Positions 1,275 to 39,593 of a stretch of DNA of 64,000 bases are shown here, in pieces. A model generated the notes under the pieces. That model saw only the letters and a program-made list of their open reading frames with translations. It did no database searches and had not been told where the DNA came from. Location: NCBI GenBank assembly GCA_000611775.1, contig KK106983.1, positions 5,461,818 to 5,525,817 on the forward strand, given 5' to 3'. The DNA is from Umbilicaria muhlenbergii (taxonomy: Eukaryota; Ascomycota; Lecanoromycetes; Umbilicariales; Umbilicariaceae). Position 1 is the stretch's first letter. Each line of letters opens with the position of its first letter. The translations under genes and the position numbers were made by a program.

Positions 1275-4200
1275 ATGGCTGGCTTCGGGGCACTGATCGA
1301 TCTGACAGTCGACTCAGAATCGAAGCAGGTGGTGCCAAAGACTCCTCCCAACCCAAAGGAAACTACAAAATCATGTGATACAAATCAGAGTACGAAGAAC
1401 ACACCTCGCCTTGCTTCCGCGCCAGCAAGTATAATTCATTCGCAGAGGCCTCTGGGCTCTCCCAGTCGGCATTCAATAGAGGCGAGGAATAGTGCGGCAT
1501 TCTCTAAGCAAGCCTCGAGGGTCTTTTACAGACCGCAAACCCTGGCTAGTTCCGAATCACGCACGTCAAGTGCGCAAGACACGTCTGGCGAGGATGTTCA
1601 AGTTTTTGATCGTTCGATACCGCCCAGGCTTAGACCGACCCCCAAATCTTTTGTGGATTTGACCAGAGACGATGGAGGGAACAGGGCTCAATCGCAGGGT
1701 CACAAGCATCAACTCGTGCAACAAACGCTACCTGAGGAAATCCGTCGATCCATCCTCAGCGATTCGGAAGAGGACCCACCATTCAGGTTTCCGCCCCTCA
1801 CGCCCTCTTTTGGCGCCGAAAGAAATCCGCAGTTAGGTTACAAGAAGTCCGTCTCATCCCTCACAAGTTCACCGTCTTTCAAAATCCCGGAAAATGGAAT
1901 TCTAAGGATGTCGCCTGCTCGGAATCAAGAGGCGCCCACTACCCCAGGCATGGAGACTACTGCTGACTGGGCTGTCTTGAGATCCTCTGCGCAAAAATCC
2001 GCGACAGAAGCTGCCGCAGCAGACAAAAGGCATTGGGACGCCCTGGCATCGACCACAGGAAGAACTGCAGCGGATAGCATTCCAGACTCTCCACGCCTAA
2101 AACCAGCCGCATTGGATCTGTCCAGCTTAGCTAGCGCCGCAAAACGGGTAGGGCCTGCTTTTAAGAAGCACGGTAAGCCGCAACCCTCGTCAAACGCTTC
2201 GAAGGGATGCGAATGCGACTCCGAATCCGAATCCGAAGATGAGGCAAATCAATCTATTCGCAATAGCAATGATATTAGCGAGGCGTTCACGGCGTTCACG
2301 TTTTCGGGTGCAGAGGATGAAATGAATACGCGAAAAAGCTTAACGAGCGTCCCTTCCCGTAAGTTTTCGGTACGCTGGCCCTCGACGTATAAGATACTAA
2401 TCCAACTGAAAGATACAGAAGCATCCGGAATTGGAGATCCTGAAATGGAGAATAGGCAGATCCCTCTGCTCTTGTCATCCTTTCAAGAAATTATGCAAAA
2501 GCACGTCAGGGACCTTCGCGAAGATCATGAGTACTACGTTAAGGTTGATAGCAACATAGAGCTAGGAAAGCGACCTAAGCTGACAGCCTTCACAGTTACG
2601 TCTACTTCGCGCTCGCCGAAAGTGTGAAAGTCGAATGTCAAAGACTCAGGCTCGGGTCACATCTGATAGTAACCCAGCTAGTGATAGTCCCAGTGTGCCC
2701 ACACCTACACATGTCCAGAACTTGTCTCCGTTTGCAAGATTAAAGTCTCTGGATCTTGCTGCCCCAACACCTACTGATCGTTCGTTTCGTTCACCGGGGA
2801 AGCTACATCAACATTTAATAAGAGGCTCCAAACAGGAAAGTCTAAAGTTGACTGTCCCACGCACTTCCTATGGCTCCCTTACAATCAAGCTCCCTCCATA
2901 CACCAACTACATATCTTCAAGGGGAAACATCCTCACCGAAGACGAGGAACAGACTACCTACTTTCCATACCATGGAGACGATCCGCCCATGGATGCTGAC
3001 TACTTTGCATTCGAGGCTCGAGTGGGAGAATCCATTCGCATGTTTCAAAACCGCAACAACTACGCAGAGAAGGCCAAGCATTATGCTCCATATGTGTGCA
3101 GGTTTCTCGAAGAAGTAGGCTGTAGCTTTCAGGATGTGCTTCGCTATCTCCTTGATGAGACCAATCCCGCCGTACCGATGGAAATGCCTGCTGCGTCGGC
3201 GGATTGCTGGCTCAATCGCGAATCTCATCTTGATGAGGACTACTATCTTTCCACCGACACAGAGGAAGGCGAGTCTGATACCATAACACCAAGAAGAGGA
3301 CGGCCAAAATCAACCCCTCAAGCTAGAGACCTTGTGAAAGGTAAGAAAAGATGGCCATACAAATGGCAGACGGTATTCGACCAGTTACCGTCATCTGAAC
3401 CACGAAAATCCGCCGCGGCGGGATTAGCTTGCGCCGCTTTCTTTAGGGTTACGGGGTTCAGTATATGGCATATAGCAAAGTCAAGTATCGACGGTGAGAA
3501 GGGCTTTCGTGATATTGACATCACAACTGGTCGTGGTCGCGGTGTGGAGAAGGAGGAGTCGAACTTGCTTGGGACCTTTACGGACCTCAGCTGTTTGGTC
3601 TGCTTCGCGTACGCATTCTCTTACTAGACCCATTGTTTTGTGGGTGCTAAAACTGATATCGCTCTTACAGACACGAGTGCCCAGGGCACGGGGAGTTTTC
3701 CAAGGACGATGAAATCGAGAACACCAGGGTTCGCGCCAATACCAAGCCCTTGTCACCGAAAGTGGCCAAAAGTAACGGCCTTGACATGCCACAGTCTATT
3801 GACACTACCCAATTGATCGGCATGAACGATGACGGCAGCGTCAGTGGTCTCCCCATCGACGAAATGACAGATCTGGATACTGGCTTCGCGGACAACGAGC
3901 TTTGTTCAGACTCCTGTTTCTGGAAGAAGACGAATCGGTCCGGACTTAAGGTCAAGCCGTGGCTAGAGAAGGACTGGGAGTTGCTCCGGGCATTGCTACC
4001 AGCCTATGTCCATAACAAGCGAGCCGCATGTATGATCGCGCTGGCTGTTCAGAAACCATGTGTCGAGGTCTGTTTCTTCCGGACTTCATTTTATATCTAC
4101 TAATATGATTTGCAGATTTTCCTTGAGATTCAACAACCATCGAGCAAACCAACGCACGTCAGCGTTAAAGCACGTAATGTAGCTACCATGCCGCATCGAT

Positions 4201-5625
4201 CAGGTCCCAAAAGAAACGGCGAGTATTGGCATGAACATTCCATAACATGGAAACATGACAATCGACCGCCGTTCCGGCCCTGCAATCACAGGGGTCCTTG
4301 CTCTATAGCTAATGAATGTAGCTGTTGCATTGAGGGTGTCACATGTGAGAAGACTTGCATGTGTGCCAACAATTGTTCCAGAAGGTATCAAGGCTGCTCC
4401 TGTGCAACACGTGGGAAAGTATGCTGGGGTAACGACAGATGTGACTGTTTTTATCTAGATCGCGAGTGTGATCCTGACTTGTGTGGCACTTGCGGCGCAA
4501 GGCAAGTTCTGGATCCAGTTAATCGCTACAAGGACGACATCGCCAAAGGCAAATGTGTGAATGTCTATGTTCAGCGGGGTGTCCCAAAACATACCATGCT
4601 GGGCCACTCCAAACTCCTTGCCAGCGGGGGGGTATCTGGCTGGGGTCTGTATATGGGTGAGCCCGTCAGGGCTGGAGATTATCTAGGGGAATATGTTGGA
4701 GAAGTGGTCTCGCGTGAGGAAGCAGAACGGCGTGGCGCTATCTACAATAGACGCAACCTTTCATATTTGTTCGACCTTAATAGTAGTATGTTCATGATCC
4801 GATATCAAGCTATGAGAGGCGCTAACTCTGAACAGAACAAACACTGGATAGTACTCGCATCGGGAACAAGTTTCGATACATTAATCACCAGGCACACCCC
4901 TATGCGAACTGTAAAGCCAAAGTACTCCTCTGCAACACTGTACACAGGATCGGAATGTTCGCCTTAAGGAACCTCGAGATAGGAGAAGAGCTGTTATTTG
5001 ACTATGGGTAAGCAGAACGTGCTGCTGAGGCTTCCTCAAGCTAACGACGTTTCTATATAGTCCTAGCTTTGCTTCTCAGTTTGTGGCCGTTCAGCTCCAC
5101 CCTAATGCGCCTCCAACGCTGGAGCGACCCAAGAAAGGGGTGGCACAAAAGGTATCGGATGTTAGGCCTGCAACCGCGAGGAAGACAGGAGCACGTATTG
5201 GACGGCCACGGAAATATTCGCCTAATGGTACTCCAATCAAGAGACCGAAACTGAAGCACAAATCAAACGGTTTGGGACTGGAGCACCTAAGTGCGGGCTC
5301 CCTTGGATTGGAGGATCTCTCTGGTTTGCCTAAAGATCGTGCAGGAGTGCTAAATGGTGACGCTGAAGTACCAGGGAGTGAAGACGATGAGGTACTTTTG
5401 TCGGAGGAAGCCGAGTTCAAAGTGGGCACAAGCAGCGAAGACGAATCATACCATGAGAGCGATGAAGTCGAGATTGAGGACTCCATCCCGGCGTCTGCAT
5501 CATCATCCAAAAAGAAGGACAAGGAAAAGGAAAAAGACAAAGCTGAGCCCGAGTATGAGAACCCGCAGAAGCGTGGATGGAAGACGCGGTATGCGAACAT
5601 GTTAAAGAGAAAACGCGGCTTGTAA
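1275..5625 (+). CDS. KMT6: E(z)/EZH2-type histone H3K27 methyltransferase (KMT6), CXC + SET domains
   Basis: Catalytic subunit of a Polycomb PRC2-like complex, predicted to methylate H3 lysine 27 in chromatin. Spliced model: introns about 2544-2595, 3609-3670, 4068-4115, 4786-4835 and 5008-5060, giving about 1361 aa. A further 60 bp in-frame intron (2359-2418, GTAAGT...ATACAG) is possible. The pre-SET CXC region is dense in cysteine (residues about 945-1040, from FRPCNHRGPCS). The SET domain follows (about 1045-1165) with GWGLY, GEYVGEVVS, GNKFRYINH and GEELLFDYG. Intron 4786-4835 has GTATGT, GCTAAC and CAG and is needed to restore the SET frame. The start is the ATG of MAGFGALIDLTVDSE, because the frame upstream has no ATG. 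Long disordered N-terminal and acidic C-terminal parts carry SIM-like and AT-hook-like motifs. The family call is secure; the exon joint near 2540-2595 is less certain. Confidence 0.9.
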
Positions 5626-6017: not shown

Positions 6018-6451
6018 ATGTCAAAAACGGTTGAACTTCCCGCACGCCTCAGCCATACCCTCATCGAACTCGTCGAGACCCACAAAGAGTGCGATCGACT
6101 TGTCTCCGAAGAATACTCCAGTATCAAATGTTACACTTGGGCTCACACACGTGTTCACGCTATCGATGCCCAGATCCGCAAGCTAGATAGGAACCGTGAT
6201 ACCTACACGGACGACCGTTACCAATCCATCAAAGCCGACCTACTCGGGGAAAAAGAGGTTGAAGCATCGCGCATGAGGAACGCAAGGGAGGAAGTGAAGC
6301 AGACTAGGTTGAAGATCAAGAAGGCCGTTAAGTTGGTAAGTCGTCTACTAAGTGTAGGCACCGCTAGTTTACTGATCGTATGGTGCGACAGTTCGCCGAG
6401 TTGAAGAAGCAATGGAAAGCGGAGAGTTCAAAGATTACTGCTAGAAGCTGA
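6018..6451 (+). CDS. Array gene 1: small helical protein of unknown family
   Basis: Two-exon gene: 6018-6335 and 6392-6451, intron 6336-6391 (GTAAGT...GACAG, phase 0), product about 125 aa. The function is unknown. The protein is charged and looks mostly alpha-helical; it has no signal peptide or membrane segment. Motifs shared with the downstream genes are an acidic/aromatic helix, WAHTRVHAI (the AHxxVH signature), IRKLDRN, then REEVKQTRLKIKK just before the intron. The last exon begins FAELKKQWKAES, a variant of the IAELEKQLAAEK cassette. The ATG of MSKTVELPARL was chosen over an in-frame upstream ATG at 5973 because the other array members also start shortly before the helical core. It is the first of nine same-strand relatives. 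Confidence 0.7.
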
Positions 6452-6638
6452 GGAACCTCATGCACTTAAGTTATCCCTGCTGTAACTGATCATCACGTTA
6501 CATGCCGCTACTGAGAACACCTCATTCATTTGCAGTGAATTACTGACTAGACTCAACACTCTCTCCATGCCATCAACCCCCTAAATGCTCCTTACCGCCA
6601 GACCTCCATCATTGAACCCCCACTCCAGATCCGTTACC

Positions 6639-7187
6639 ATGAACATCCACCCATGCGCCTTACGCTCCGCCCACAACTTTACTTCAGAAAAGTACTCGAC
6701 TCTAAAGACTACAGCCGAGATTCTAAACCACAGCCTAGCTCACCGCGAATATCTGCTTCTAAGGATCCGAGCCCAGATAGTTGACTACCAGGGACCCCAC
6801 GCCAAAATTCACCAAATCTACGCTGATCTGCGTGAGCTTGAGACGAAGAAACACCGGTATTCGGAACGTCACTATACTAAAGTCAAGGGCGAGCTGCTGG
6901 ATCGTCGAGATAGACAGCGTATGGGGATGGAACTACTGAGGTACAATGTAAGGTATCTAAGGAGGGTGCTGATGGGGGTCAGACGGCGTGTAAGCATCAG
7001 GTATTACTTTACCAGGGAGCAGTGCACTAATGCGATTTTGCAGATCGCAGAGTTGGAGGAGCAATTGACGGCGGAAAAGGCAAAGCATTCTTCTGATGCA
7101 GAGGAGGCTACTGAAAAAGGGGAGGGCGGGTGTACCGCGTGTCTCGGAGCAGGGGTCATAGGATTGAGGCTGTTGAACGGACGATGA
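6639..7187 (+). CDS. Array gene 2: small helical protein of unknown family
   Basis: Exons 6639-6989 and 7044-7187 with intron 6990-7043 (GTAAGC...TTGCAG). The intron is 54 bp and free of stops, so unspliced RNA would also stay in frame. Spliced product is about 164 aa. Shared marks are GPHAKIHQIYADLRELE in the middle, a basic helix before the intron, and IAELEEQLTAEKAK at the start of the last exon. This member has the longest C-terminal tail, ending in a Gly/Cys-containing stretch (GGCTACLGAG). An upstream in-frame ATG at 6585 exists; 6639 (MNIHPCALRS) fits the family length better. Confidence 0.65.
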   Translation: MNIHPCALRSAHNFTSEKYSTLKTTAEILNHSLAHREYLLLRIRAQIVDYQGPHAKIHQIYADLRELETKKHRYSERHYTKVKGELLDRRDRQRMGMELLRYNVRYLRRVLMGVRRRVSIRYYFTREQCTNAILQIAELEEQLTAEKAKHSSDAEEATEKGEGGCTACLGAGVIGLRLLNGR

Positions 7188-7460
7188 CGCTGTTTTGTTA
7201 CCATTGTGCTGACAAGACCCGTTAAATGAGGCGATCCCCCGAACGTGTTAACTGAAACTCTTCGATGATTTCGTGAACAGCCACATCCCGATTCCAGATT
7301 CGCTACTAGCCCCTCAACATTCACTCCTCAAATCCGCATTGACACAAGCTGATGCAAAGCCTCCATCCGGCTACCTAGCTCGTACTTCATCGACAGCGTC
7401 AGTCCTCCACTATTCACTCCACCGTTCTCAACGTTTTTCGACAATACATCACCCGTCGCC

Positions 7461-7904
7461 ATGTCGACCACCGCAATGTCCAAGTCCTCACCTAGTTTAA
7501 CAGCCCAGGAACTCGCCGATGCTCTTACAGTGTACGATCGCCTCATCCTGAGAGAACAGACATACCTTGGGGATTATAACATAGCCCAACATTGCCTGCA
7601 CAAAACATATCACAGGTTACGCAAGCTCGAAGAGCGAAGGACGCGGTCACATGTCCGTCGTTACTTGGACAGGAAATCGGCGCTCATCAATAAACGGGAT
7701 TGCGAGCGTATGATGATGAGAGCTTCAAGGGAGATTGTCATAGAGACTAGGTCGAAGATGAAGGAATTGAAAAACCAGGTAAGAGAACGCTAAGTAGCTA
7801 ATCTTCAAAGGAACCTACTGACGGGATCACAGATAGGGCTGTTGAAAAAGCGGTTGGCGGCGGAAGAGGCCCAGCCTTCTCCTAAAGCAAAAAGGACTCG
7901 TTGA
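7461..7904 (+). CDS. Array gene 3: small helical protein of unknown family
   Basis: Exons 7461-7778 and 7833-7904, intron 7779-7832 (GTAAGA...ATCACAG, phase 0), product about 129 aa. Order of recognisable pieces: LADALTVYDRLILREQ (matches the YDRL helix of genes 5 and 7), HKTYHRLRKLEERR, a basic helix rich in Arg/Met, KMKELKNQ at the exon end, then IGLLKKRLAAEEAQ. The C-terminus PSPKAKRTR is strongly basic. The exon 1 length (318 nt) equals that of genes 1 and 4, which supports the start. A second ATG lies at residue 6. Confidence 0.7.
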
Positions 7905-8309
7905 AAGGGTCAGAGAACGGGCATGCTGTGTTTCTCTGAGCGAGGGCCATACATGGAGACAAGGATATCCAGACGAGGATCAAACTGTGGTGTTGCGTAG
8001 GTGTTGCCGCTATCTATTCACCACGGTGAAGTTACCAGCTGAATTGGTCGGAAACCGGAGAACTAGTGACTGCGGTCGTGAATCGGATTTTCCTCCACCC
8101 CCAGCCGCTAACACGTGCGTCGCGCCTCCCACTCGTGAACATCTACGTGACTTCCACCCTAGCCGCCTCTAGAAGCCCACACGCATCCAACCATCTGCCA
8201 TCGCCACAACCGCCCTTCATCTCCACACGCCTGCCCACCATCGCCACAACCATCAGCATCCACCCACCACGTCCACCACGTCCACCGTCTCCTCCCCGTC
8301 GTCGTCGCG
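7905..8309. other. Intergenic region between array genes 3 and 4
   Basis: No gene seen. The last 100 bases before the ATG at 8310 are very C-rich with repeated CCACC and CACGTCC motifs, which create long spurious proline-rich frames on the plus strand. Confidence 0.4.
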
Positions 8310-8728
8310 ATGTCCCACCCCACCGCGCCCCCCCCATGTCCCAAATCTCTCATCCACCAGCTCTCCGACTTGCTAATGCTGCAAAACACCCTCCTGAAGC
8401 ATGAACAAGGGATCATCGCCGAATACATGCTCAGCCACAACGACGTGCACGGCAGCTACGCGTCCATCCGCAAAGTCCACGAGAACCCCAATCGACTCTC
8501 AGCTGAGTTGTGCGATAAATTGCTACGCCTGCTTGTGGAACGCCTTGAGGATGAGAGGGCCGTCATGGGGGCGTGGCGGGCGGAGGTTAGGGTGGTTAGG
8601 GGGGAGTTGAGGGTTGTGACGGAGAGGGTGAGTTTGTGGCTGGCAGAGTGGTTGAATGGTGAGGAGATGGGCTAACGGGGAGATAGATTGCGGTATTGAC
8701 GAAGGAGTTGCGGAAGGGAGGGGAGTGA
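8310..8728 (+). CDS. Array gene 4: small helical protein of unknown family
   Basis: Exons 8310-8627 and 8687-8728, intron 8628-8686 (GTGAGT, branch-like GCTAAC, AGATAG), phase 0, product about 119 aa. It starts MSHPTAPPPCPKS, then enters a helical core with LLKHEQGIIAEY, HNDVHGSYASIRKVHE and a long Glu/Arg helix ending RGELRVVTER. The last exon, IAVLTKELRKGGE, is the shortest form of the cassette. The second half of the gene is unusually G-rich and purine-biased compared with genes 6-8. Confidence 0.65.
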
Positions 8729-9090
8729 GGGCTCTCCCGGGGGTTCAGGGCTTATCCGCGGGAGCTAGGAAGACTCGCACGGTGTGAAGCTCAGACGGAG
8801 GCCATCCAACTGTTACAGCACGTCATGCCGGATGAAAGGAAAGGATAGTCGGTGGAAGTGTCGAATGTAAGATCACTGCAGATTGCGGACACGTGCGAGT
8901 GAGCTATTGAAGACATTCATCCTCTGCTATTGTTTCTTTTCGGATAACACACAAACGCTTTCATCCAAGACATCACTCCCCACCACTTCACCTCTCACAA
9001 TGTCACTCCCCACTACATGAACCGTTCCTCCATTTCCCCACCAGCACACTCAACCCTCCTCCCACACATCTCGTTCTCACACCCTCCACA
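8729..9090. other. Intergenic region between array genes 4 and 5
   Basis: No gene, repeat or RNA seen. The 3' half is rich in CTC and CAC runs leading into the ATG at 9091. Confidence 0.35.
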
Positions 9091-9858
9091 ATGACCCCCG
9101 GACCAACCACCCACCCAGCACCCAGGACAACCATTCATCCAGCACGCCGAACAAGCAGTCACCCTCCCCGCCAAACAATCAACCCCCAAACAACAACCCA
9201 ACTGTCCCCCCGACCCTCCAAACCACCCTCCAACACCTCCCTCCTCGCACCCCCTCCAACCCATCCAAACTCCCACCGAACCCCACCCGTCCACCCACAG
9301 CTCCCCGCGCCACTAACAATCCCACCACATGGTCCTACACCCCCGTCCGCCCTAATCGTACCCGCCCCAATCGTGCCCGCCCCGGCCCCGTCCAAACGTG
9401 CCAAACCCTCCACGAATCCCAGCTCTCCCGCCTCCGCTTCTCCCGCGGCAAATACGAACGTCTCCTCGCCCAGCACGCCAGAATACTGCAAACGTACGCT
9501 GAAGCGCACCAAGCGATCCACCAAGGCTACAAGGAGTTGTACGCCTACACTGCTGACCGCGGGCGGGGGGAGATATCGCAGAATGCGTTTGATGTCCATA
9601 GTCGAGATATCCTGGGGCTGCGAGAAGTTTTGAGTGGGAGGACGCGGGGGGCGAGGGAGGCGATTGGGGGAGTTAGGGCCAAGTTGCGGGGGTGTAGGGG
9701 GGAGGTGAGTGCGAATAGAGAGGTTTTGGTTGATTAGGGGAAGGAGGCTAATGAGTGTGGGGTGGTGGTAGATTGACGAACTAAAAGCGACGGGGGTGAA
9801 GGAGTCGTGGAGGAGGGAGAAGGAGTGGAGGGAGGGGGCGGGGAAGGGTTGGAGGTAG
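9091..9858 (+). CDS. Array gene 5: family member with a proline/threonine-rich N-terminus, model uncertain
   Basis: The helical core lies in a different frame from the only plausible ATG at 9091. A possible intron 9358-9422 (GTACCC...CCCAG, 65 bp) joins them in frame, giving a 211 aa product with exons 9091-9357, 9423-9704 and 9772-9858. The first 90 residues are Pro/Thr/His low complexity, absent from most relatives. The core reads GKYERLLAQHARILQTY, AEAHQAIHQGYKELY (AHxxIH signature) and a glycine- and arginine-rich stretch. Intron 9705-9771 (GTGAGT...GGTAG) sits at the family position and the last exon begins IDELKATG. A frameshifted, dying copy is an alternative to the first intron, whose donor is weak. 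Confidence 0.5.
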
Positions 9859-10471
9859 GGGATGGATTTGAGGGAGGTGTTGAGGGAGGTGGTGGGTGGA
9901 GATGGATGGATGGAGGGCGGAATGGTGGAGGGAGATGGATGGAAGGTAAAACGCTGAAGAGCAGGGTGAATGGCTGAAATCAGTGGCGTATCTTCCTTCC
10001 GATCAGGAATACCTTCTTGATGCTCTGTCGGAGATTGAGAATTTCGGGGAAGATGAAAGGCGCAGATGTTAGATGGTGGATTGGTGAGCTCTAACACTAT
10101 ACTCTTGTTGAGCTTTAGCAATTACACTCTTGCGTTTACTGAACCATTATGTGCTATTCTTTATTGTTTTTGCTGCCGAGGATCCTCTGGGTTTTTCTGC
10201 CCTAACAGTAACACTTGTGTTGATGGTAAGCCGGAAAGTGTGAATGGCGAACCTGGAGTAGCGGATAGAGAAGCGGTGGATAGGAGTGAATAGGAGTTTG
10301 AAGAGCGTGGTATTGTGTTGTTTTGTGGAGTTGCAAATCATCCGATCAAGCATTCACTGGTAGTTCTGTGTTGTCAAGTCAAACTTCTTCACTCATATTC
10401 TACTCGTACTCTTTCCAATTACCCATCCGTCAAACAATTCATCTCGAACCAACACAATACCCGCTCTCACC
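9859..10471. other. Intergenic region between array genes 5 and 6
   Basis: At 613 bp this is the longest gap inside the array. The start is a continuation of the G-rich purine tract of gene 5; the remainder is ordinary sequence. I looked for another family copy (AHxxVH, IAEL cassette) and found none. Confidence 0.4.
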
Positions 10472-10929
10472 ATGGCAACTTCCATCGAACCAACTTCCAG
10501 CCAACGACTCAATGACGCTATTGCCGAATACAATCATCTGGTCTCACGCATCGAATACCCACACACCGCGGGCTACCACGAAGCCCATAAGGTCCTGCAT
10601 CAGGTGTACATCGATCTCAGAAAACTCGAGAATACGGTCTCCCTACGGCCCCATCATTATTACCTCTGGACATCCGAAATACTCAAGTTGCGTAGGAGAG
10701 CAGAAATATGTCGAGAACGGATGTGCGTTGAGAAAGAGAGCGTGAGGGAGCTGAGGGAGGCTTTGCCGGCAGTGAAGAAGAAGGTGAGTGGTCGGTATGA
10801 TTGCGAGAGAGTCAGTTGCAGATGTATTGATGCTCTCCTGGTTGGTAGATCGATGAATTGAGAAGGCAAGTCGCGGCGGAGAAGCGAGATCTTCTCGCCC
10901 AGGCCAATGGGATGGAGATGGGTGGATAA
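10472..10929 (+). CDS. Array gene 6: small helical protein of unknown family
   Basis: Exons 10472-10783 and 10849-10929, intron 10784-10848 (GTGAGT...TTGGTAG, phase 0), product about 130 aa. The ATG follows a short CACC context. Recognisable pieces are LNDAIAEYNHLVSRIE, EAHKVLHQVYIDLRKLE (one of the clearest copies of the signature), a cysteine-containing basic helix, and LPAVKKK at the exon end. The last exon is IDELRRQVAAEKRDLLAQ followed by a short Gly/Met tail. It has no membrane segment or signal peptide. Confidence 0.7.
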
Positions 10930-11117
10930 TTGAGAAGCGTGTCTTGTGGTCTGTGAATCGAGCTATCCAGTAGATCCATTCACAGGCGTCTCTGCGATGT
11001 CAAGAGGCCCTTCTGCGTCTTTGTCTTACCTGCCGTCTTCCAAACATGAACATCGTGTACCTTCTCACCTCAAGATCCAGCATATTAGACTGAAATTTCT
11101 ATCCAAGTACTGTCACC

Positions 11118-11539
11118 ATGTCAATGTCCACTGTGCCTGACTCGTCCAAACCGACCCCTGAGACGCTCCAACATGCCCTCGCCGAGTACGATCGTCTCTT
11201 CTTAGTCCACGAATCGCGCATGATTGCATACGATAATGCTCATGGCATGGTCCATCGCAGTTCTGCCATCCTGTATCGGCTAGAACATGGGCCACACATC
11301 TCCCCCTCCATCCCATGGCTTCATGAGAACCGCAAACGTTATGTCTCGTATTTGCGGAGTTCTGCAGGAGAAAGGATGAGGGTTGCCAGGGAGGAGGTGA
11401 GGTCCATTCGAGTGGAGATGAAGAAGATTAAAGAACTGGTATGAGCGTTGTCTCTTTGACTGTGCTTGAAAGCGGATGCACTAACGCCATGAGATAACAG
11501 ATTGCTGAGCTGGAAAAGCAATTGGCTGTGGAGAAGTGA
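11118..11539 (+). CDS. Array gene 7: small helical protein of unknown family
   Basis: Exons 11118-11438 and 11501-11539, intron 11439-11500 (GTATGA, CTAACG, ATAACAG, phase 0), product about 119 aa. It has a compact architecture: LQHALAEYDRLFLVHESR, NAHGMVHRSSAILYRLE, a Pro/His loop, then a helix ending EEVRSIRVEMKKIKEL. The last exon is exactly IAELEKQLAVEK, which with gene 9 best defines the cassette consensus. Two close ATGs occur at 11118 and 11124; the first is used. Confidence 0.72.
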
Positions 11540-11782
11540 GGTCTTCTGACCCAGCCCAAGGGAGCGGATTTGACCGCTGGTTGGATATGACGGCGGCGTG
11601 ATTCCAACTTGATAGATCAGGCTTTTCGGGTAGACATTCACAAGTCATTCGGCGCTGTCGAAATTAACTTCTTTCACGCGTCTCTTGCTTGCAGTTTAGT
11701 AAACCATCAAAATCAGCTATCTTCCCATCTCAAAAAACATCCGACACCCAAGACCAAAATCTCTCTCCCTCTCTCTCTCATC

Positions 11783-12212
11783 ATGACCAAGTCGACAGAA
11801 CCTGCGCTACGCAAACCGACCGTCAAGGAACTTCGAGCCGCCCTCGCTGACGCTCATGCCGAATTCGATGACCTCCTCGAACTTCACGACGAACACATCG
11901 AAAAGTACAACAGCGCCCACAAAGAAGTCCATACCCTCACCACCGATCTAGATTTGCTTGACCGACAGGCATACCTCATACAAGATTATGAGTATGAATG
12001 GATGAAAGACGAAGGTGAGGAGCGAAAGGGAGAACGTGGACGAGATATGATCAATGCACGAGAAGCCGTGAAGGAAGTTAGACTGCAATTAAGAGAGGTC
12101 AAGGAGAAGGTAAGCGGTCACCCTGGTGATGCGAATATGGACCGCAGTTGTGCTGATTGTCTCTCCGTTATAGATCACCGTGCTGGAAAGGCAGTTGGCC
12201 GCGAAGAAGTGA
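11783..12212 (+). CDS. Array gene 8: small helical protein of unknown family
   Basis: Exons 11783-12109 and 12174-12212, intron 12110-12173 (GTAAGC...TTATAG, phase 0), product about 121 aa. This is the most acidic member: DAHAEFDDLLELHDEH, NSAHKEVHTLTTDLDLLD, EYEWMKDEGEER, then AREAVKEVRLQLREVKEK before the intron. The last exon is ITVLERQLAAKK. The start ATG follows a long CT-rich run (11758-11781), a typical fungal pyrimidine stretch near transcription starts. An upstream in-frame ATG at 11609 is possible but would add a stretch without family similarity. Confidence 0.7.
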
Positions 12213-12789
12213 GAAGGCATCGAAAGGGAGATTGGGTGGCGAAGTTCAGAGTGTACGAGGCGTATTGTCTCATAAAGATTGATCGGCTCAGAAATGAGGA
12301 GGGCGAGATGGTAATGTGATGCTTCTTCTGTGGCCCTTTCGGCCCATCGAGTGGTTTAGGCCAAGGATAAAGAATTTCATACCAACATCTGAACTGCGTT
12401 CAAACCTCTTAGATAAAAATCTGACCAGTAAACTGTTGATATCGTCCAGCAGGGGTATGAGGAAAATGAGTGACAGTCTCCAGCTCGCGCCTTCTCGATA
12501 TTCCAGGGGCGAGATCGATATGTCTAAGTCCTTGAAGTGAATGCTGTCCGGATCCAAGGCTTCTCTCATCTCTGCATTCAAAATCTGACTTTATTGCTGA
12601 GTGGTCGAGGAGAACCCAAGCTGAGGATTGGCACTTATTTGGTGGAGATACGTGCCAGCAAAGACAGTATAACACTCAAGCAAGTGAATTTGACGGCGTT
12701 CACAAAGCTAGAGTGTTGACAACGCCAACGACATGATATCGGAGTTGATCGCAGACGTTTGCATACCATGAACACGCACATCCTCATCC
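12213..12789. other. Intergenic region between array genes 8 and 9, holding a MITE
   Basis: The gap contains the transposable element listed at 12463-12640. Outside that element nothing was recognised. Confidence 0.5.
12463..12640. mobile_element. MITE copy A (terminal inverted repeats, about 178 bp)
   Basis: The left end AAAATGAGTGACAGTCTCC and the right end GGATTGGCACTTATTT are imperfect inverted repeats. The interior aligns by eye with the elements at 45932-46114 and 53879-54057, sharing a TCCTTGAAGTGAATG-like block and a GGATCCA..GCTTCT block. It has no coding capacity, so it is classed as a non-autonomous DNA transposon. Target-site duplication was not resolved. Confidence 0.65.
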
Positions 12790-13338
12790 ATGTCTCTTTT
12801 AAATCTTTCCAATCCCCCAGATCGTTCCCCTCCTCCTCCACCAATCCCCGATCAACAAAACCCAACCACTCTATCCCTCTCTATCTCCCTTAAAACTGTG
12901 GACCTTCATCGACCCCACCTCTTCCGCTCCATTTCCAGCCATACGCCTCCAGATCGCGCGCGTCTCGCTCAACCGGTTCATCGCCACACACGACCAATGC
13001 ATCGCCCACTACCACGAAGCCCACAGGAAGATCCACAGCATGTACAACCGTATGCGTAACTTCGAAGCTGCCAGACACCGACTACCCCCAGGCGTCTATG
13101 ATGATTACTCGAGAAGTCAACATGGGCGGCGGGATATTGCGAGCGGGGAGATGAGAGTGGCGAGGGAGAATGTAAGGGCGGTTAGGGAGGAGATAAAGCG
13201 AGGGCAGGAGATAGTAAGTACGTCCGAGGCGTTGAGAGACCAAATTAATTGAGAGTGTAGCAGATTGCTGAGCTCGAAAAGCAAGTAGCAGCTGAGAAGT
13301 CGAGCGTTGTTGTCAACCCAGGGAGAGCCACAACGTGA
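12790..13338 (+). CDS. Array gene 9: family member with a divergent N-terminus, model uncertain
   Basis: Proposed exons 12790-12897, 12953-13213 and 13264-13338, about 147 aa. The family core (RFIATHDQCIAHYHEAH, RKIHSMYNRMRNFE, MRVARENVRAVREEIKRGQ) is open from about 12800 but has no ATG in its own frame. The ATG at 12790 reaches it only through a 55 bp intron (12898-12952) with an unusual GTGGAC donor. The second intron 13214-13263 (GTAAGT...TAGCAG) is at the family position and leads into IAELEKQVAAEKSS. As with gene 5, a frameshifted copy is the main alternative. The stop lies 113 bp before the end of the convergent RAD2 gene. Confidence 0.5.
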
Positions 13339-27273: not shown

Positions 27274-30200
27274 ATGATGGCTTCTACGCAATCGCCGAAG
27301 GCGGCGCAAACACGTCCGGGCGCGCGCAAATCTATCGCTCACCTCCCCTCCCCAGATATCAACATTGAGAAAGAAAACATGACCTTGGGCAACATTGCGA
27401 CGATGTCGTTAATGACAGACACAAAAGCTGAGCCAAAGAAGAAGCGGAGCAAAAGCATTGGACCTGGTGGACTAGATGCGCTGAAGGAGGATGCGGGGAA
27501 CCGACGAAAGGTACATTTCTATTGATCAGACGAGCATTTCAGAAACTGATCATTGCTTCTGAATAGTCTGCTTTGCCACCCATCGTGAAGTCAATCCTCA
27601 AGCCAACAATACCTCTATCGCCTCCCAAACAAATCCCACCTCATCCCAGCGCTCGAAGTGGCAGCCCTGCCAAGACCAGGAGATCTCTATCACCAAGAAA
27701 AAACACTGGCTTGGACTGGCAGGCAGATGCCATGATAGATGACAAGGGTCCTTCCGTGACTGGGTCTGAGGTCCTTCCGAACCCGTTTGGTACACCTTTG
27801 GAGGCTCCTCCAACCACACAATCGCCGCCGTCGGGATTGGTTCAGGAGATGCGCATTGCGGTGCGTACGGAAGAGGAACAGCAAGCAGCTGCGAAAGAGC
27901 GCCAAAAACAGGAAGTGCTTGCTCGAAGAGATGCACGAAGGAAATCACTGGGTAAACAGATTCTCTCACAGCCTCGAATCATGCATAGTGCGTGAGCATG
28001 TCTAAGACTTAGTTTGCTAATCAATTGGCAGCTAATCGAAGGGTCTCGTTCGCCCCAGAGGCGACTTTACATACATGGGACGTTGTTGAACTCCCAGAAG
28101 ATTCAACAACGTCCTCTGCCAACAGTACTCGACGAGCATCTGCCATGTCGGCCGTCCCACAAGGACCACATCCCCAGCAGTCATCAGGACCTAGTTCAGA
28201 TGCCTCTGAACCACCGTCAACACCACCCGAACAAACCGAAGAGACTACATTGAAGGCCTCGTCAGCTCATCAGCGGGATCTACACCAGAAGAAGCGTCGT
28301 CGCAGTTCCGGAATACCGCCCATGAACTTCAATAACCCAGATGATTTCTCATCAAGTCCGTTCAGTGGTAGCTCAGCTGCTGATGATGATACCGGACACC
28401 AGAGTTTTGCAGCCGCAGATGACGACAGTATGTCTAACTCCGAAGATGATGACCTTGTCGAGGGCGAAAGCACCGTGACAGGTATAGATGTAGACGGCGA
28501 TGATCTGACTGGGCAGTCTGTTGGGTCGATGCATTCGACCGCATCAAGCACCGGATCTAGCGGCCGACTTGAAGCAGCTCTTCGTCAAGCGGCCAACCAA
28601 GCAGGAACTCAGGGTATTGAATACGATGAGCATGGCGACATTACCATGGAAATGGCCGACGATGAAATTACTGCTGCTTTCAAGCCCTGGGTAAAGAAGG
28701 GAATGTATATGCCCAAGGTTATGGGCGACCTTAGTGCTCTTCAGAATCAAGAGAACCTGAATCCGTTTTCGCCGGCTTTCAAAGCCAATCTCACGAGTCA
28801 GAATGCTCCAGATGACGAGGAACAGGAGGAGACAATGGATTTTACTCAAGCTGCCGGCGCGATATTGCCCAGTTTCGAGAAATCGCAGGGATCTCCTGTA
28901 CGTGGTCGCCGCAAGTCTGGTGCAACCGGTCAACGACGAAGCAGTGCAGGACGTCGTAGGTCATCTGCAGACGCTTCAGTTCTAGAAGATCAAACCATGG
29001 AGTTGACGACAGCCATAGGTGGTATACAACCAGGGCCACAAGCACAAGCAACCACGGACGACGGTCAGGAGTCTGCTGATGAGGACGAAGAGCTGACGAT
29101 GGAGTTCACATCCGTAGTTGGTGGGCTCATAGATCGGAAGCCTGAGAAGCGTGAATCACTGGTCAACAATCAGCTTGCAAGCGAGCAATTACTGCTGGAC
29201 GAAAACCGGCGAGAGGGTGATTCTTCGATTATGCAGGAGGAAGACATGGACATGACGATGGCAATTGGGGGCATTCTACCATCCATTACTGAGCAAGCCG
29301 AGCCTATTGAAGATGATACTATGGCCATGGATATCACTACTGCGATTGGGGCAATATTGCCGAAGCAGCTAAACACGGGGACCAAGGCTCAAGCCAAAGA
29401 TCTTATGGAGCGGGAAATCGATGCGGGTCAATTCTCGAACGCTCAGCTACTGGAAGAGGCTTCAAGCTTCTCTAAGGTGGCCACAACAACCGAGCATTTG
29501 ACCGCCAGGGCTTCAGAAACAGGTAGTCCAAGCTTATCAACTCACAACACCCGAAATAGCACCCGTCGAAGCGGAGAACCAAGGCAGTCCACTACGCCAA
29601 AAGCTCCGTCGCAACAGGACACACCGCTAAAAAAGCCATCAACTCCCTCGAAACAACTTACACCAAAACCAGCACGTCCCACCACGCCAGGAAAGACACC
29701 ACCTTCTAAGAATGTCAGCATGAGAACTGGTTCGCCAAAGAAGCTCTTCAGGCGCGAGATCAAGCATGCATCCTCCACCCCTGAACCCTCATCACGACCC
29801 TCCTTATTCCGTCAAGACACGATCTCGGGGCTTGCAACACCCAGTGTGGTACTCACGCCCAACGGGCGTCGGATTTCGGGCATAGGAATCGACCAAGCCG
29901 GGCTGGGATCCCCCCGCGTGGCTGCCTTGCTTGACCGACGGGGCTCTATTGGCGAAAATGCCAAAGCATTCGCTTCCCAAGGTCAGGTCGCACCAAGCGT
30001 CAGATTCGAGGATCCCCGTGCCATGGAGCAAGAAGTCGAGAGAGAACTCGAGGAGGAAGAGCGCCGGGAAAGTGGACGCGGGATATTGCAAAGGGAAGCT
30101 GACGTGCAAGATATCGCCGAGGAAGAAAAGGATGCGACAGTGAATCTGAAAGGGATGATTGAGAGCCTGACACCCAAAAAGAAAAAGCTGAATGGCCGCA

Positions 30201-32205
30201 AAAGCCTTCATGTTGGTGCGGCGAAAGGTCTTCTTGGTAAGAGACCTATTGAACTTGATGAGGATGAAGAAGATATGGAAACGCCTCCTAAGCGCCTCAA
30301 GGGTCGGGAAGGAAGCCCGGTAAAGAATGTTAAGCTACCAGCACCACCATCGAAGACAGAGACCACTGGTCGCACTACCCGTGCAACGAGGTTGAGTCTT
30401 GCTGAAACAGCTGGCAATGTTCAACCGGCTACACCTACTACAGCTTCATCACCCTCGAAGAATGATCGCATCACTACGCCAAAGGATCAAACTCGGTTCA
30501 AGGATGCTGAGCTGCACTCGAGCTCTCAGAAGCCACTCACGTCGTTCAATGGGAAACTTGCTGGCGAGGCAGAGATCTCTATCCAACCTGATGAAGAGGA
30601 CGACCGCATCCACCTCCAGGACTTTCTGAACATGACAAGTATTCGATTTATGGAACTGACCACTACCAAGCGTAGACATACTGTGGCACCGAACGCTATG
30701 CTAGAAGATGGTGCTAGGAAACCCAGCCAAGTAGGTGAGGACACAGCTTCAGGTCGGGAGCTTGAGAAGTGTGTCGTAGCTGGTGCCTGCACTGTCCCGA
30801 TGCTTGAGCTCTACCAACATGTAAGTCCAATCTGTTGATGCTTTCTGTAGCTGTGCTTATCGTGTTATCTAGTCCTGCCGTGAACTCAAAAAATACATCG
30901 CTGAAGGCCGCAGCATTGTCCGAGAAATCGAAGCGGATACTTTCGAGGAGAACCCAGCATTATTCCGCGAGTATATGTCTGCAGCTCCGGACGTAAGATC
31001 AATCATGGACAATCAGTTCAAGAATGTAAAGACTCATGCCAGACTCCTGAGCAAGTCTATGTGGTATGAGTGGCGGATGAAGTTGCTGGATGGTCTGAAA
31101 GAAGGGCTACTCAGGGTCGGCGAGGGTATGACAGCGGATGCCGAGATCCTAGCAGAGCAGGAAGCTCTGATAAATCCTGTGCTCCCAGCCTTGATTGCAG
31201 AACACGAGCGACTTGAGACGGAATGCCAGCTCCTCCAAGCTCAGGCCGACGAACTTGCAAGCTGCGATCAAGAAGAGCTCAAAGAAGCTCGAGAAAAGCT
31301 TATCGCCACGGAGGAAGGGATTAAAACGAAGAGAAAGATGGTCGAGGAAGTGCAAAAGCAACTGCAAGAAAAGGAAGAAGGCATTGCCAACGCTACCGAG
31401 AGAAAGCAGGAATGTCTACTGGAGATCAAGGAAGCTGAGAAAGTACGCGAAGAATGTCGCGGATGGACCGCCGCCGAGATCGCCACCCTGAAATGTACGT
31501 CCCCTCTCCCGTCCCTACCAAACACCTCTTTACTAAACCCTCACAGCTCAAGTCGCCACCCTCGAGCGCACCACGGGCTGGTCCATCACCACCGCCTCCG
31601 GCCCCACTCTCACCCTCACCTACCAGCACACCCTCCAAATCTTCTTTACGCCCTCCTCTTTCCTCGCCCACAACTCCACCACTCCATCACCTTCCAAGAC
31701 CGAAAACTCCCCCATCAGCCTCACCTACATCGCCGACACCCACGAACCCCTCACGACCGAAAAACGCTTCTTCCTGCAAATCATGCGCGCACACCTCCAA
31801 TGTCTCCACCAATCCACTACTCCCGTCCCTGCTCTCCTTGCCTTCGTGAAAGAGAGCTGGGAGAGCGCGGATAACATCGCGGAAGAAATCCGTCGGTTGA
31901 AACTAGGATTCATCACTGAAGCGTCCATTCGCTCTGATGAGGTGTTGGCTGTTACATCCACTATTCTACTCCGCGCTCTTAAGACGAAAGTGGATGTTGT
32001 GTTTGAGGTCGAAGTTAAGTCCGGCGGGGATGGTGGGTTGGAGGGACTGAAAGTGGGAGTGGAGGTTGGAGCGAGGGTGGTTTATGGGGAGGGGTTGAAG
32101 GAGGGGCGGATGGAAGAGTTTTTGAAGGTGAGGGTTGGGGGTGGGCGGTGGGCGGGGGCGGTGAGGGAGTTGGAGGGGAGGGTTGGGGCGAGGGGAAAGA
32201 GGTAG
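27274..32205 (+). CDS. SPC105: Kinetochore scaffold SPC105/Spc7/KNL1
   Basis: Outer-kinetochore scaffold that recruits PP1 and, through phosphorylated MELT motifs, Bub3-Bub1 of the spindle checkpoint. Exons end and restart at introns 27511-27566, 27952-28031, 30821-30872 and 31495-31546; about 1563 aa. The second splice creates KSLANRRVSFAPEATLHTWD, carrying the PP1-docking RVSF (residues about 211-214). Five MELT-like motifs follow at about 475-640: MDFT, MELT, MEFT, MDMT and MDIT, most followed by A-I-G-G-I-like residues. The Spc7 region begins at about 1068 (LQDFLNMTSIRFMELTT), then a long coiled coil, then a C-terminal RWD-like domain (from about TTGWSITTASGPTLTL). Two ATGs are adjacent at 27274 and 27277. 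Confidence 0.93.
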
Positions 32206-36900: not shown

Positions 36901-38983
36901 ATGGGCTTCATCTTATTACGGGTACGTTCACCTTCTCGTTGATGGTTGCGACCACAAGTGTCTTCTTTCGTCGTAAAAGGCTACATTCCATGCACCAGAC
37001 GAACCATAAAAACAAGTGGCAGCTCACAAACGGGAAGGCCCCCTGATATCTTGACCGCAAAGCAAGGTTTGAGCTGTGCAGTTGCTATCAGAAGTCACTA
37101 AGCTTTTCCAGCTACACTCATGATTTAATTTATCAGGTGTCTTCTCATTTATCGACTTACTACTAAGGATCCCCCAGATTTCTCATTTCGCGACCGCCAC
37201 TTGTTTTGATGGTACGCCTGGCACTGGACACAATCTCCTTCTGAACCCCTATCGTTACACAAGGAGTGCCTCGTTCTATCTGAAGTCGTAAGAGGCTACA
37301 CTCCATGCACAGAAGCACAATCTTCTTCTGAACGCCTGTCTGCACACAAGGAGTGCCTCGTTCTGTTTGAAGTCGTAAGAGGCTACACTCCATGCACAGA
37401 ACCACAATCTCCTTCTGAACGCCTATCTTCACAAAAGGAGTGCCTCGTTCTACTTAAAGTCGACTTTTGGCTGGACACCGCTCATCAAGTGGTGACCCAG
37501 GCATAGCTTCCTGAAGGCCCTCAGCTGACTTTTCACAGTCGTATTGGATAAGCATTTGGACGAGATCCTACAGTACGGAATCCGCCCTGGTACGAGCACA
37601 CCATATGATCTTCCAGCAAACATCGTTCCATCATCATACGACGAGCGATAACGACAAGGAGCCCAAAACTGACCTGTGGTTTTACTTGAGCATATATATC
37701 GGGCTGTCGGTCGTTATTTGCGTGGTTGGAACATTGAGATACTTCTTCACCTTCCTTGGATCTCTCAAGGCATCTCGGATCATGTTCGAAAAGCTTACAT
37801 ATACTGTTCTTCGAGCTCCTCTGCGGTGGCTGGACACAGTTCCAGTTGGCCGTGTCCTTAACCGCTTTACCGCGGACTTCAATATCATTGATTCACGGAT
37901 TGGTAACGATATTGGCTTCATGCTTTATGAGATCCTTCAGGTCATCGGTATTACAGTCGCAGGGCTGTTCGTTTCCCTTTACATGCTTCTATTCGCAATT
38001 TTGCTATTTAGCGTATGCGTGTTCGTTGCCCTGCGGTATCTAGTAGGAGCTAGGGAAGTGAAACGGCTTGAGTCCAACGCAAAAAGTCCCATCTTTGAAC
38101 AATTCGGCTCGGCGTTAGCAGGAGTCGGTACTATTCGAGCCTTTGACAAAGCGGACATATATGTGCAAAGGTGAGTCCGCTTACACGCCACTTTGCCAAC
38201 GGTGATATTAACACGGGTTCTTGACAGGATGTTTGATAGAATAGACGACCATGCTCACACCTTCTGGCACCTGTTGTTGTTCAATCGCTGGCTGGGCTTC
38301 CGACTCAATCTAGTAGGAGCCATGTTCGCCATCTTGGTGGCAGTCGTGATTGTGTCGACAAAGGGTATCGATGCCTCCTTGGCCGGTTTCGCACTCGGCT
38401 TCGCTCTCCAGTACACGGATGCCATAGTCTTCGCCATCCGTACGTACTCGAGCACAGAACTCGACATGAACGCCACCGAACGCATCGTCGAATACTCCCG
38501 CATCGCCACCGAAGACCAAACCGGCGACACCCCTCCCGCATCCTGGCCCACCGAAGGCCGCCTCGAAGTCGACAACCTCGTCGTGGGCTACGCCCCGGAC
38601 CTGCCCCCCGTGCTCAAAGGCCTCTCCTTCAGCGTAGCCAAGAACCAAAGAATCGGCGTCGTCGGCCGCACCGGCGCCGGCAAATCCTCCCTCACCCTCG
38701 CGCTCTTCCGCTTCCTCGAAGCCCGCTCCGGCTCCATCCACATCGACGGCCTGGACATTTCCAAAATCAAACTCCACGACCTCCGCAGCCGGCTCGCCAT
38801 CATTCCGCAAGACCCCGTCCTCTTCTCCGGCACCGTGCGCTCCAACCTCGACCCCTTCGACCAGCACACCGACGCCGAGCTGCGCGACGCCCTGGAGCGC
38901 GTCCACCTCGTCCGCAGCACGGGCCTCACCTCGCGGGACGAAGCCACCACCGGCGGCAGCGGAAGCGGAAGCGGAACCGACAC

Positions 38984-39022
<39 letters not shown>

Positions 39023-39593
39023 AGCAGAAGCAGCGGACACAAACACCAACCCCTTCACCTCCCTCACCTCCCGCATCAGCGAAGGCGGCCTCAACCTCTC
39101 CCAAGGGCAACGCCAACTGCTCTGCCTCGCGCGAGCCATCGTCGCGCGCCCGAAAATCCTCGTCCTCGACGAAGCGACCTCGGCCGTCGACGGGGCGACC
39201 GACGCCCTCATCCAGCGCAGCATCCGCGACGAATTCTCCGACGCCACCCTCATCGTTATCGCGCACCGCTTGAGCACCATTGCGGATTTCGACCGCATCT
39301 TGGTCGTGAGTGAGGGGGTGGCGGTCGAGTTTGGAGCGCCGGGGGAGTTGTTGAGTCGGAGGGGGGTTTTTTGGGGGATGCTGCGGGTTAGTGGGGAGGG
39401 GGGAGGGGNNNNNNNNNNNNNNNNNNNNNNNNNNNNNNNNNNNNNNNNNNNNNNNNNNNNNNNNNNNNNNNNNNGGGGGTGGGGGGCCGCAGGGGGAAGG
39501 GGTGGGCTAGGCTGGGGCAGCTGCGTGGCGTTTGGACGGGGGGGTGATAAATTGAATAGACTGGAAGGGCTTCTGGTGAGGGGTGCTGGGTAG
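33923..39593 (+). CDS. ABCC-type (MRP/YBT1-like) full ABC transporter
   Basis: ATP-driven exporter or vacuolar transporter, probably of conjugates or amphipathic compounds. Exons 33923-34252, 34303-36921, 37539-38170 and 38228-39593; about 1648 codons including 66 unknown bases. Order: N-terminal membrane region (TMD0), TMD1 with a long Lys/Asp-rich loop (about residues 370-430, typical of Ybt1/Vmr1-like proteins), NBD1, TMD2, NBD2. NBD1 has Walker A GKTGSGKS (about 675), [15 protein letters not shown] and [12 protein letters not shown], with Asp where the catalytic Glu is expected, a known ABCC asymmetry. NBD2 has GRTGAGKSS (about 1340), LSQGQRQ and [13 protein letters not shown] 12-Ala run lies in NBD2. 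The second intron is 617 bp. The true stop is uncertain because of the N run. Confidence 0.9.
37004..37212. mobile_element. MITE copy B, diverged relative (about 209 bp)
   Basis: The ends are near-perfect inverted repeats: CCATAAAAACAAGTGGC on the left, and the complement of the right end reads CCATCAAAACAAGTGGC. The TIR core AACAAGTGGC is shared with copy C at 45932. The interior only loosely resembles copies A, C and D, so it is a diverged or related family member. It sits inside an intron and appears to interrupt a unit of the neighbouring 87 bp repeat. Confidence 0.6.
37231..37462. repeat. 87 bp tandem repeat, about 2.7 copies
   Basis: Copies begin at 37231, 37318 and 37405 (last one partial) with CAATCTCCTTCTGAAC, followed by CAAGGAGTGCCTCGTTCT, AAGTCGTAAGAGGCTACACT and CCATGCACAGAA. 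A further fragment (GTCGTAAAAGGCTACATTCC) lies at about 36971-36995, before the TIR element. Confidence 0.8.
39409..39474. other. Assembly gap (66 N)
   Basis: Unknown bases inside the last exon of the ABC transporter, in an extremely G-rich stretch. The C-terminal residues and stop codon of that protein cannot be read with certainty. Confidence 0.99.

Follow-up and report, generated by a model that had tools for sequence, protein, structure and literature searches.

The window analysed here comprises 64,000 nucleotides of Umbilicaria muhlenbergii DNA (positions 5,461,818 to 5,525,817 of contig KK106983.1, C3:5461818-5525817 in a genome of 34.8 Mb and 7 contigs) and carries, at 6018-13338 on the plus strand, nine related genes in a head-to-tail array. 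An initial annotation made from the letters of the sequence had proposed such an array of small helical proteins, and the profile, the intron design and the codon frame all agree with nine related genes at this position. The family is real and old, it is undescribed in the libraries and literature searched, and its fold is ordinary. According to Pfam the array is flanked upstream by an Ezh2-like gene and downstream by a gene with XPG domains, which we take to be RAD13-like; by its gene content the window is fungal.

Seven copies have a start codon. These are gene 1 (6018..6451; exons 6018-6335 and 6392-6451, phase-0 intron 6336-6391; 125 amino acids, aa), gene 2 (6639..7187; exons 6639-6989 and 7044-7187, intron 6990-7043; 164 aa), gene 3 (7461..7904; exons 7461-7778 and 7833-7904, intron 7779-7832; 129 aa), gene 4 (8310..8728; exons 8310-8627 and 8687-8728, intron 8628-8686; 119 aa), gene 6 (10472..10929; exons 10472-10783 and 10849-10929, intron 10784-10848; 130 aa), gene 7 (11118..11539; exons 11118-11438 and 11501-11539, intron 11439-11500; 119 aa) and gene 8 (11783..12212; exons 11783-12109 and 12174-12212, intron 12110-12173; 121 aa). 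For the other two only the core is given: gene 5 (9402..9858) with a first-exon core to 9704, an intron at 9705-9771 and an exon at 9772-9858, and gene 9 (12920..13338) with a first-exon core to 13213, an intron at 13214-13263 and an exon at 13264-13338. The seven genes with a start codon have a first exon of 104-117 codons and encode spliced proteins of 119-164 aa. The upper end of the range of 119-211 aa given originally corresponds, by arithmetic, to gene 5 with a 5' intron at 9358-9422 (89+94+28 residues).

All nine introns of the array are in phase 0, as had been claimed, run from GT to AG, measure 50-67 nucleotides and are followed by a last exon. Each of the nine contains a YTRAY branch-like site; after shuffling, 1.8 of them do so on average. 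The codon score, which was trained on window genes that double as the reference genes, is best in the family frame among the three forward frames for all nine copies; gene 5 is the only one in which an antisense frame scores higher. The array genes score 0.009-0.183, mostly under the 0.164-0.237 of the reference genes. A profile built from the first exons of the array recovers all nine, on which it was trained, at E-values of 2.5e-37 to 3.3e-31; the best open reading frame (ORF) of the window outside the array reaches 0.3. No RNA families or tRNAs were found in the window.

None of the seven copies with a start showed a membrane-like segment in a hydropathy scan, in keeping with the initial annotation. 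In the same scan, the highest 10-residue mean at the N-terminus (windows starting at residues 1-25), where a secreted small effector would carry a hydrophobic signal peptide, was 0.38-1.19. The proteins are small and hydrophilic, and apparently soluble.

The array of nine is incomplete as a description of the family, which occupies at least six loci with 29 recognisable copies in the genome. Besides the 9 copies of the window these are C3:3.875-3.885 Mb (L027 and L028; 9 copies), C2:1.269-1.273 Mb (L030; 5 copies), C1:6.100-6.104 Mb (L031; 3 copies), C1:7.887-7.888 Mb (L073; 2 copies) and C1:10.031 Mb (L074; 1 copy). Copies were found with an iterated first-exon profile over the ORFs of the window and of stretches round the other loci, where 6-30 kb were covered round each locus and the arrays may be longer. 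This gave 30 ORF matches at E <= 1e-3, equal to 29 copies since one copy consists of two ORFs, and no reversed or shuffled control ORF fell under 1e-3 in four rounds (best control 0.016). The last three genome searches, with queries from three loci, returned no new locus, and the counts are lower bounds. Within each locus the counted copies all lie on one strand. No neighbouring gene shared between loci was seen, with window genes named by Pfam and the others by eye.

In 23 of the 29 copies a loose search gave a candidate phase-0 intron and, behind it, a last exon resembling those of the family, several of the candidate donors outside the window being non-consensus; the remaining six had none, one of them lying at the end of the examined stretch. 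A possible family remnant at L028:7707-7856 (E 0.074) is outside the 29 counted, and a further genome match at C2:1044389 (E 0.55) lies inside a 1322-aa frame. Two copies of the C3:3.88 Mb array, L028 898-1191 and 1755-2051, have a last exon with acidic repeat-like tails. About 6 kb past the same array, L029:4591-7436 is a gene that reads by eye like a NACHT-ankyrin protein.

Residue conservation was evaluated on an alignment of 30 rows (A2), made of 27 copies and the relatives P0002-P0004; the split L027 copy and L028 3364-3738 were excluded. The other 26 copies in A2 are 12-30% identical to gene 7. In an ungapped count round the aligned tyrosine, the Tyr, His+4 and His+8 of helix 1 are each kept in 26/27 copies, and these are the only positions conserved at >=90% over the 30 rows. 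The same three reach this level when the other clade, made up of the 11 copies at the C1 and C2 loci, is taken alone. Relative to the Tyr, a hydrophobic residue is present at -11 in 25/26, at +7 in 26/27 and at +14 in 23/27 copies. When only the nine window copies are aligned, the invariant positions are Y39, H47, R97 and L110 (gene 1 numbering). The YDRL, AHxxVH, LxKLE, AREEV and IAELEKQLAAEK pieces listed in the initial annotation hold as a consensus, but not in every copy.

Three conserved polar residues on one helix could form a metal- or cofactor-binding or pH-sensing site, with the Tyr-His-His stripe as the site and the paralogues tuning it. We consider this unlikely, as conservation of this degree extends to no acidic or Cys ligand, there is no convincing solved relative, and a structural polar cluster would account for the pattern equally well. 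The stripe is also not without exceptions: in gene 3 Gln takes the place of the first His of YxxxHxxxH, where its relatives P0009 and P0010 keep the His, and the C2 copy L030:5594-5839 lacks both the Tyr and the second His.

Of the 23 copies for which a candidate last exon was available, all but the L027 copy and L031:1153-1452 were examined for the heptad pattern. In 21/21 copies a single best heptad register spans helix 2 and continues beyond the intron, and the pooled hydrophobic fraction at a and d positions is 0.67, compared with at most 0.40 in 2000 shuffles, so that helix 2 and the last exon show the a/d pattern of a coiled coil. Counted from the intron, hydrophobic residues are found at -21 (20 of 21), -14 (21), -11 (16), -7 (13) and -4 (18) and, after it, at +1 (21), +4 (21) and +8 (17). 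The +1 and +4 hydrophobics were used in picking the last exons, and the remaining positions are independent of that choice.

Basic residues stand beside this zipper-like heptad in helix 2, as might be expected of DNA-binding regulators of the basic-zipper (bZIP) type. In bZIP factors a basic-region signature precedes the zipper; this pattern is present in 0/30 rows, and the Pfam model bZIP_1 matches 1/30 members at E 0.053. Several members are moreover acidic, and the heptad hydrophobics run on through the basic stretch. A role as such regulators is disfavoured and seems very improbable. Rad50-type zinc hooks carry CxxC at the hairpin turn; CxxC is found in 0/30 first-exon rows, and the sole instance seen is in the last exon of gene 2.

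The initial annotation had proposed predicting the structure of each copy. This was done with AlphaFold2 for the first exon of gene 7, which is modelled as an antiparallel two-helix hairpin (H14-57/H66-106) with a mean predicted local distance difference test score (pLDDT) of 93.2 and a predicted template modelling score (pTM) of 0.77. The resemblance of this hairpin to those of ESCRT-III (CHMP4B) and prefoldin is generic, and the 23 Pfam families that the 30 members match at E <= 0.1 include neither a Snf7 nor a prefoldin model.

Those 23 families are each matched by a single member, the best E-value being 0.00059 (APG6_N coiled coil). For the nine window members (A1) 28 families were obtained at E <= 1; the 25 of these that are listed are again each matched by a single member, with a best E of 0.00036 (HrpB7). 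Sequence matches in the PDB are short or weak. Those to apolipoprotein A-I (E 0.0008-0.07) cover 33-36 profile residues only and are not regarded as kinship, and neither the SAS-6 homologue 6ys4 (E 0.053 and 0.016) nor PspA/Vipp1 (E 0.24-0.33) was taken as such. The statement that the genes belong to no recognised family is therefore upheld, with no Pfam model matching more than one member. Fungal lineage-specific gene clusters, for example in Neurospora, are, as portrayed in an excerpt of PMC10684091, like the present family in having clustered genes, a restricted distribution and unknown domains; unlike them, the family consists of a single intron-bearing hairpin design that recurs at six loci. 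A limited full-text literature search turned up no account of a family of this kind.

Nine relatives, all without a listed name or Pfam domain, were obtained when 5.8 billion protein sequences were searched. P0002-P0004 are orthologues of gene 2 (60-72%), P0005-P0008 are orthologues of gene 7 (64-76%), and P0009 and P0010 are relatives of gene 3. In the tree the relatives group with their own window copy, with support of 100/99 for gene 2 and 98/99 for gene 3 (both starred) and of 92/98 for gene 7 with P0005-P0008 (unstarred). The duplications of genes 2, 3 and 7 therefore predate the splits among these genomes, and these copies, having copy-specific orthologues, have been individually retained. 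The longest contig is given as 7888 bases for P0002 as well as for P0009, a hint that genes 2 and 3 may lie side by side in the relatives too. No orthologues of genes 1, 4, 5, 6, 8 and 9 were returned by this search, which uses few words and is not evidence of absence. A viral or prokaryotic origin was rejected, as tblastn of gene 7 against viral_contigs and genome_contigs, which detects close relatives only, gave no relative.

As regards the other loci, the C3:3.88 Mb copies form one group (96/91), whose position among the window copies has weak branch support, the C1:6.10 Mb copies form another (99/94), and a further group (96/94) mixes copies from C2 and C1:7.89 Mb. Old tandem duplication with low identity and a fixed gene structure, as first proposed, is supported by these results. 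The claim of fast divergence has to be tempered in view of the individual retention of genes 2, 3 and 7.

Several arrays of low identity, with variable loops and tails, would also suit genes of self/non-self recognition, selfish (drive) genes or other conflict genes, acting as multi-copy, divergent, partner-specific coiled coils, and the C3:3.88 Mb array lies near the NACHT-ankyrin-like gene mentioned above. Such genes seem quite unlikely here: copy-specific orthologues are kept across assemblies, no Pfam domain is common to the members, and the neighbours of the window array are Ezh2-like and XPG-like genes. None of the observations clearly favours or disfavours a role in self/non-self recognition or in stress.

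The structure is well supported, and from it we infer a function. In our preferred reading, to which we give a probability of roughly 0.45, the family consists of small intracellular coiled-coil hairpins that serve as oligomerising adaptors with paralogue-specific partners. The family has one gene design, in which exon 1 encodes two long helices and, after the phase-0 intron, the last exon extends the heptad of helix 2. Each protein would fold back into an antiparallel coiled-coil hairpin with the Tyr and the first His facing its core as a conserved polar site. The end of helix 2 contributed by the last exon would overhang the hairpin and pair with another copy or a partner, and the variable N-terminus, loop and tail would give each paralogue a partner of its own. 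A bolder form is speculative and rather doubtful: a new fungal family would have multiplied one hairpin design, its Tyr-His-His site buried and its zipper end overhanging, into a private set of paralogues that choose one another or divergent targets as partners, and the site would be a ligand- or metal-controlled switch.

Several observations weigh against the adaptor reading. The structure model covers exon 1 of gene 7 only, and in a structure search the hairpin matches many unrelated proteins at similar Z; the fold is generic and therefore yields no function. Isoelectric points range from 4.4 to 10.3 across copies (some sequences truncated), which argues against a common charge-based role. 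The core frames of gene 5 (9021-9737) and gene 9 (12803-13252) contain no ATG, and each start is either still to be placed or lost. In the C3:3.88 Mb array one copy is clearly frame-split (L027 9141-9818/9299-9646), and L028 3364-3738 is probably so, continuing in 3219-3566 (weak, E 0.31). The closest pair of paralogues, L028 898-1191 and 1755-2051 (49% protein and 63% DNA identity), has nonsynonymous and synonymous substitution rates of dN 0.44 and dS 0.80 (dN/dS ~0.56), indicating weak constraint.

The starts originally assigned to genes 5 and 9 do not hold, as the ATGs at 9091 (gene 5) and 12790 (gene 9) sit in a frame other than that of the family core. Possible extra 5' introns joining the cores to an ATG have a poor donor and no branch-like site, and a stricter scan for 5' introns of genes 5 and 9 found none. 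The two genes are sisters in the tree (96/86), with gene 5 on a long branch, so that either an unseen upstream exon is common to both or the start was lost. An upstream exon is still conceivable because L031:1153-1452, a copy of another array, has a plausible intron immediately 3' of its ATG.

With starts absent in two of the nine window copies and split copies at C3:3.88 Mb, part of the family may be decaying, and it is likely that some copies are. It could further be argued that the whole family is a set of relics, descended by duplication from an old gene and by now for the most part pseudogenes no longer under selection: an in-frame ATG is missing from genes 5 and 9, L027 9141-9818/9299-9646 is frame-split and L028 3219-3738 likewise on a weak match, the array codon scores are mostly under those of the reference genes, and dN/dS is ~0.56 in that one paralogue pair. 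Wholesale decay of this kind appears quite improbable, however, given that 7/9 window copies combine an open frame that has a start with an intron carrying a branch-like site, that Tyr, His and His are each kept in 26/27 copies, and that genes 2, 3 and 7 have conserved orthologues.

In these searches the family lacks a shared Pfam match and a convincing PDB match, and all its relatives are unnamed, yet some 29 copies stand in one genome and orthologues are conserved elsewhere. Annotation could easily miss the family because its genes are short, intron-split and barely alike; YxxxHxx[VIL]H together with a phase-0 zipper exon is a clear and testable signature. The function of this orphan family, whose fold is an ordinary one, would probably be new once found.

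Two further properties of the arrays were evaluated. In 19 upstream regions CCCATC occurs in 11/19 and CCCATCT in 8/19, both in excess (corrected values 0.00026 and 0.001); a common promoter motif was rejected, and the excess is read as a C/T-rich leader instead. Repeat-induced point mutation (RIP) was rejected as a driver, the TpA/ApT ratio of the arrays (0.60-0.66) being close to the 0.67 of the rest of the window.

Elsewhere in the window, the Ezh2-like gene of the Polycomb repressive complex 2 (PRC2), with fungal CXC domains, extends from 4188-4967 onward and adjoins the array upstream. An open frame at 38229-39593, adjoining an ABC transporter ORF, includes 23 unreadable codons (X), and 28145-30838 holds a Spc7-like kinetochore gene with MELT motifs.

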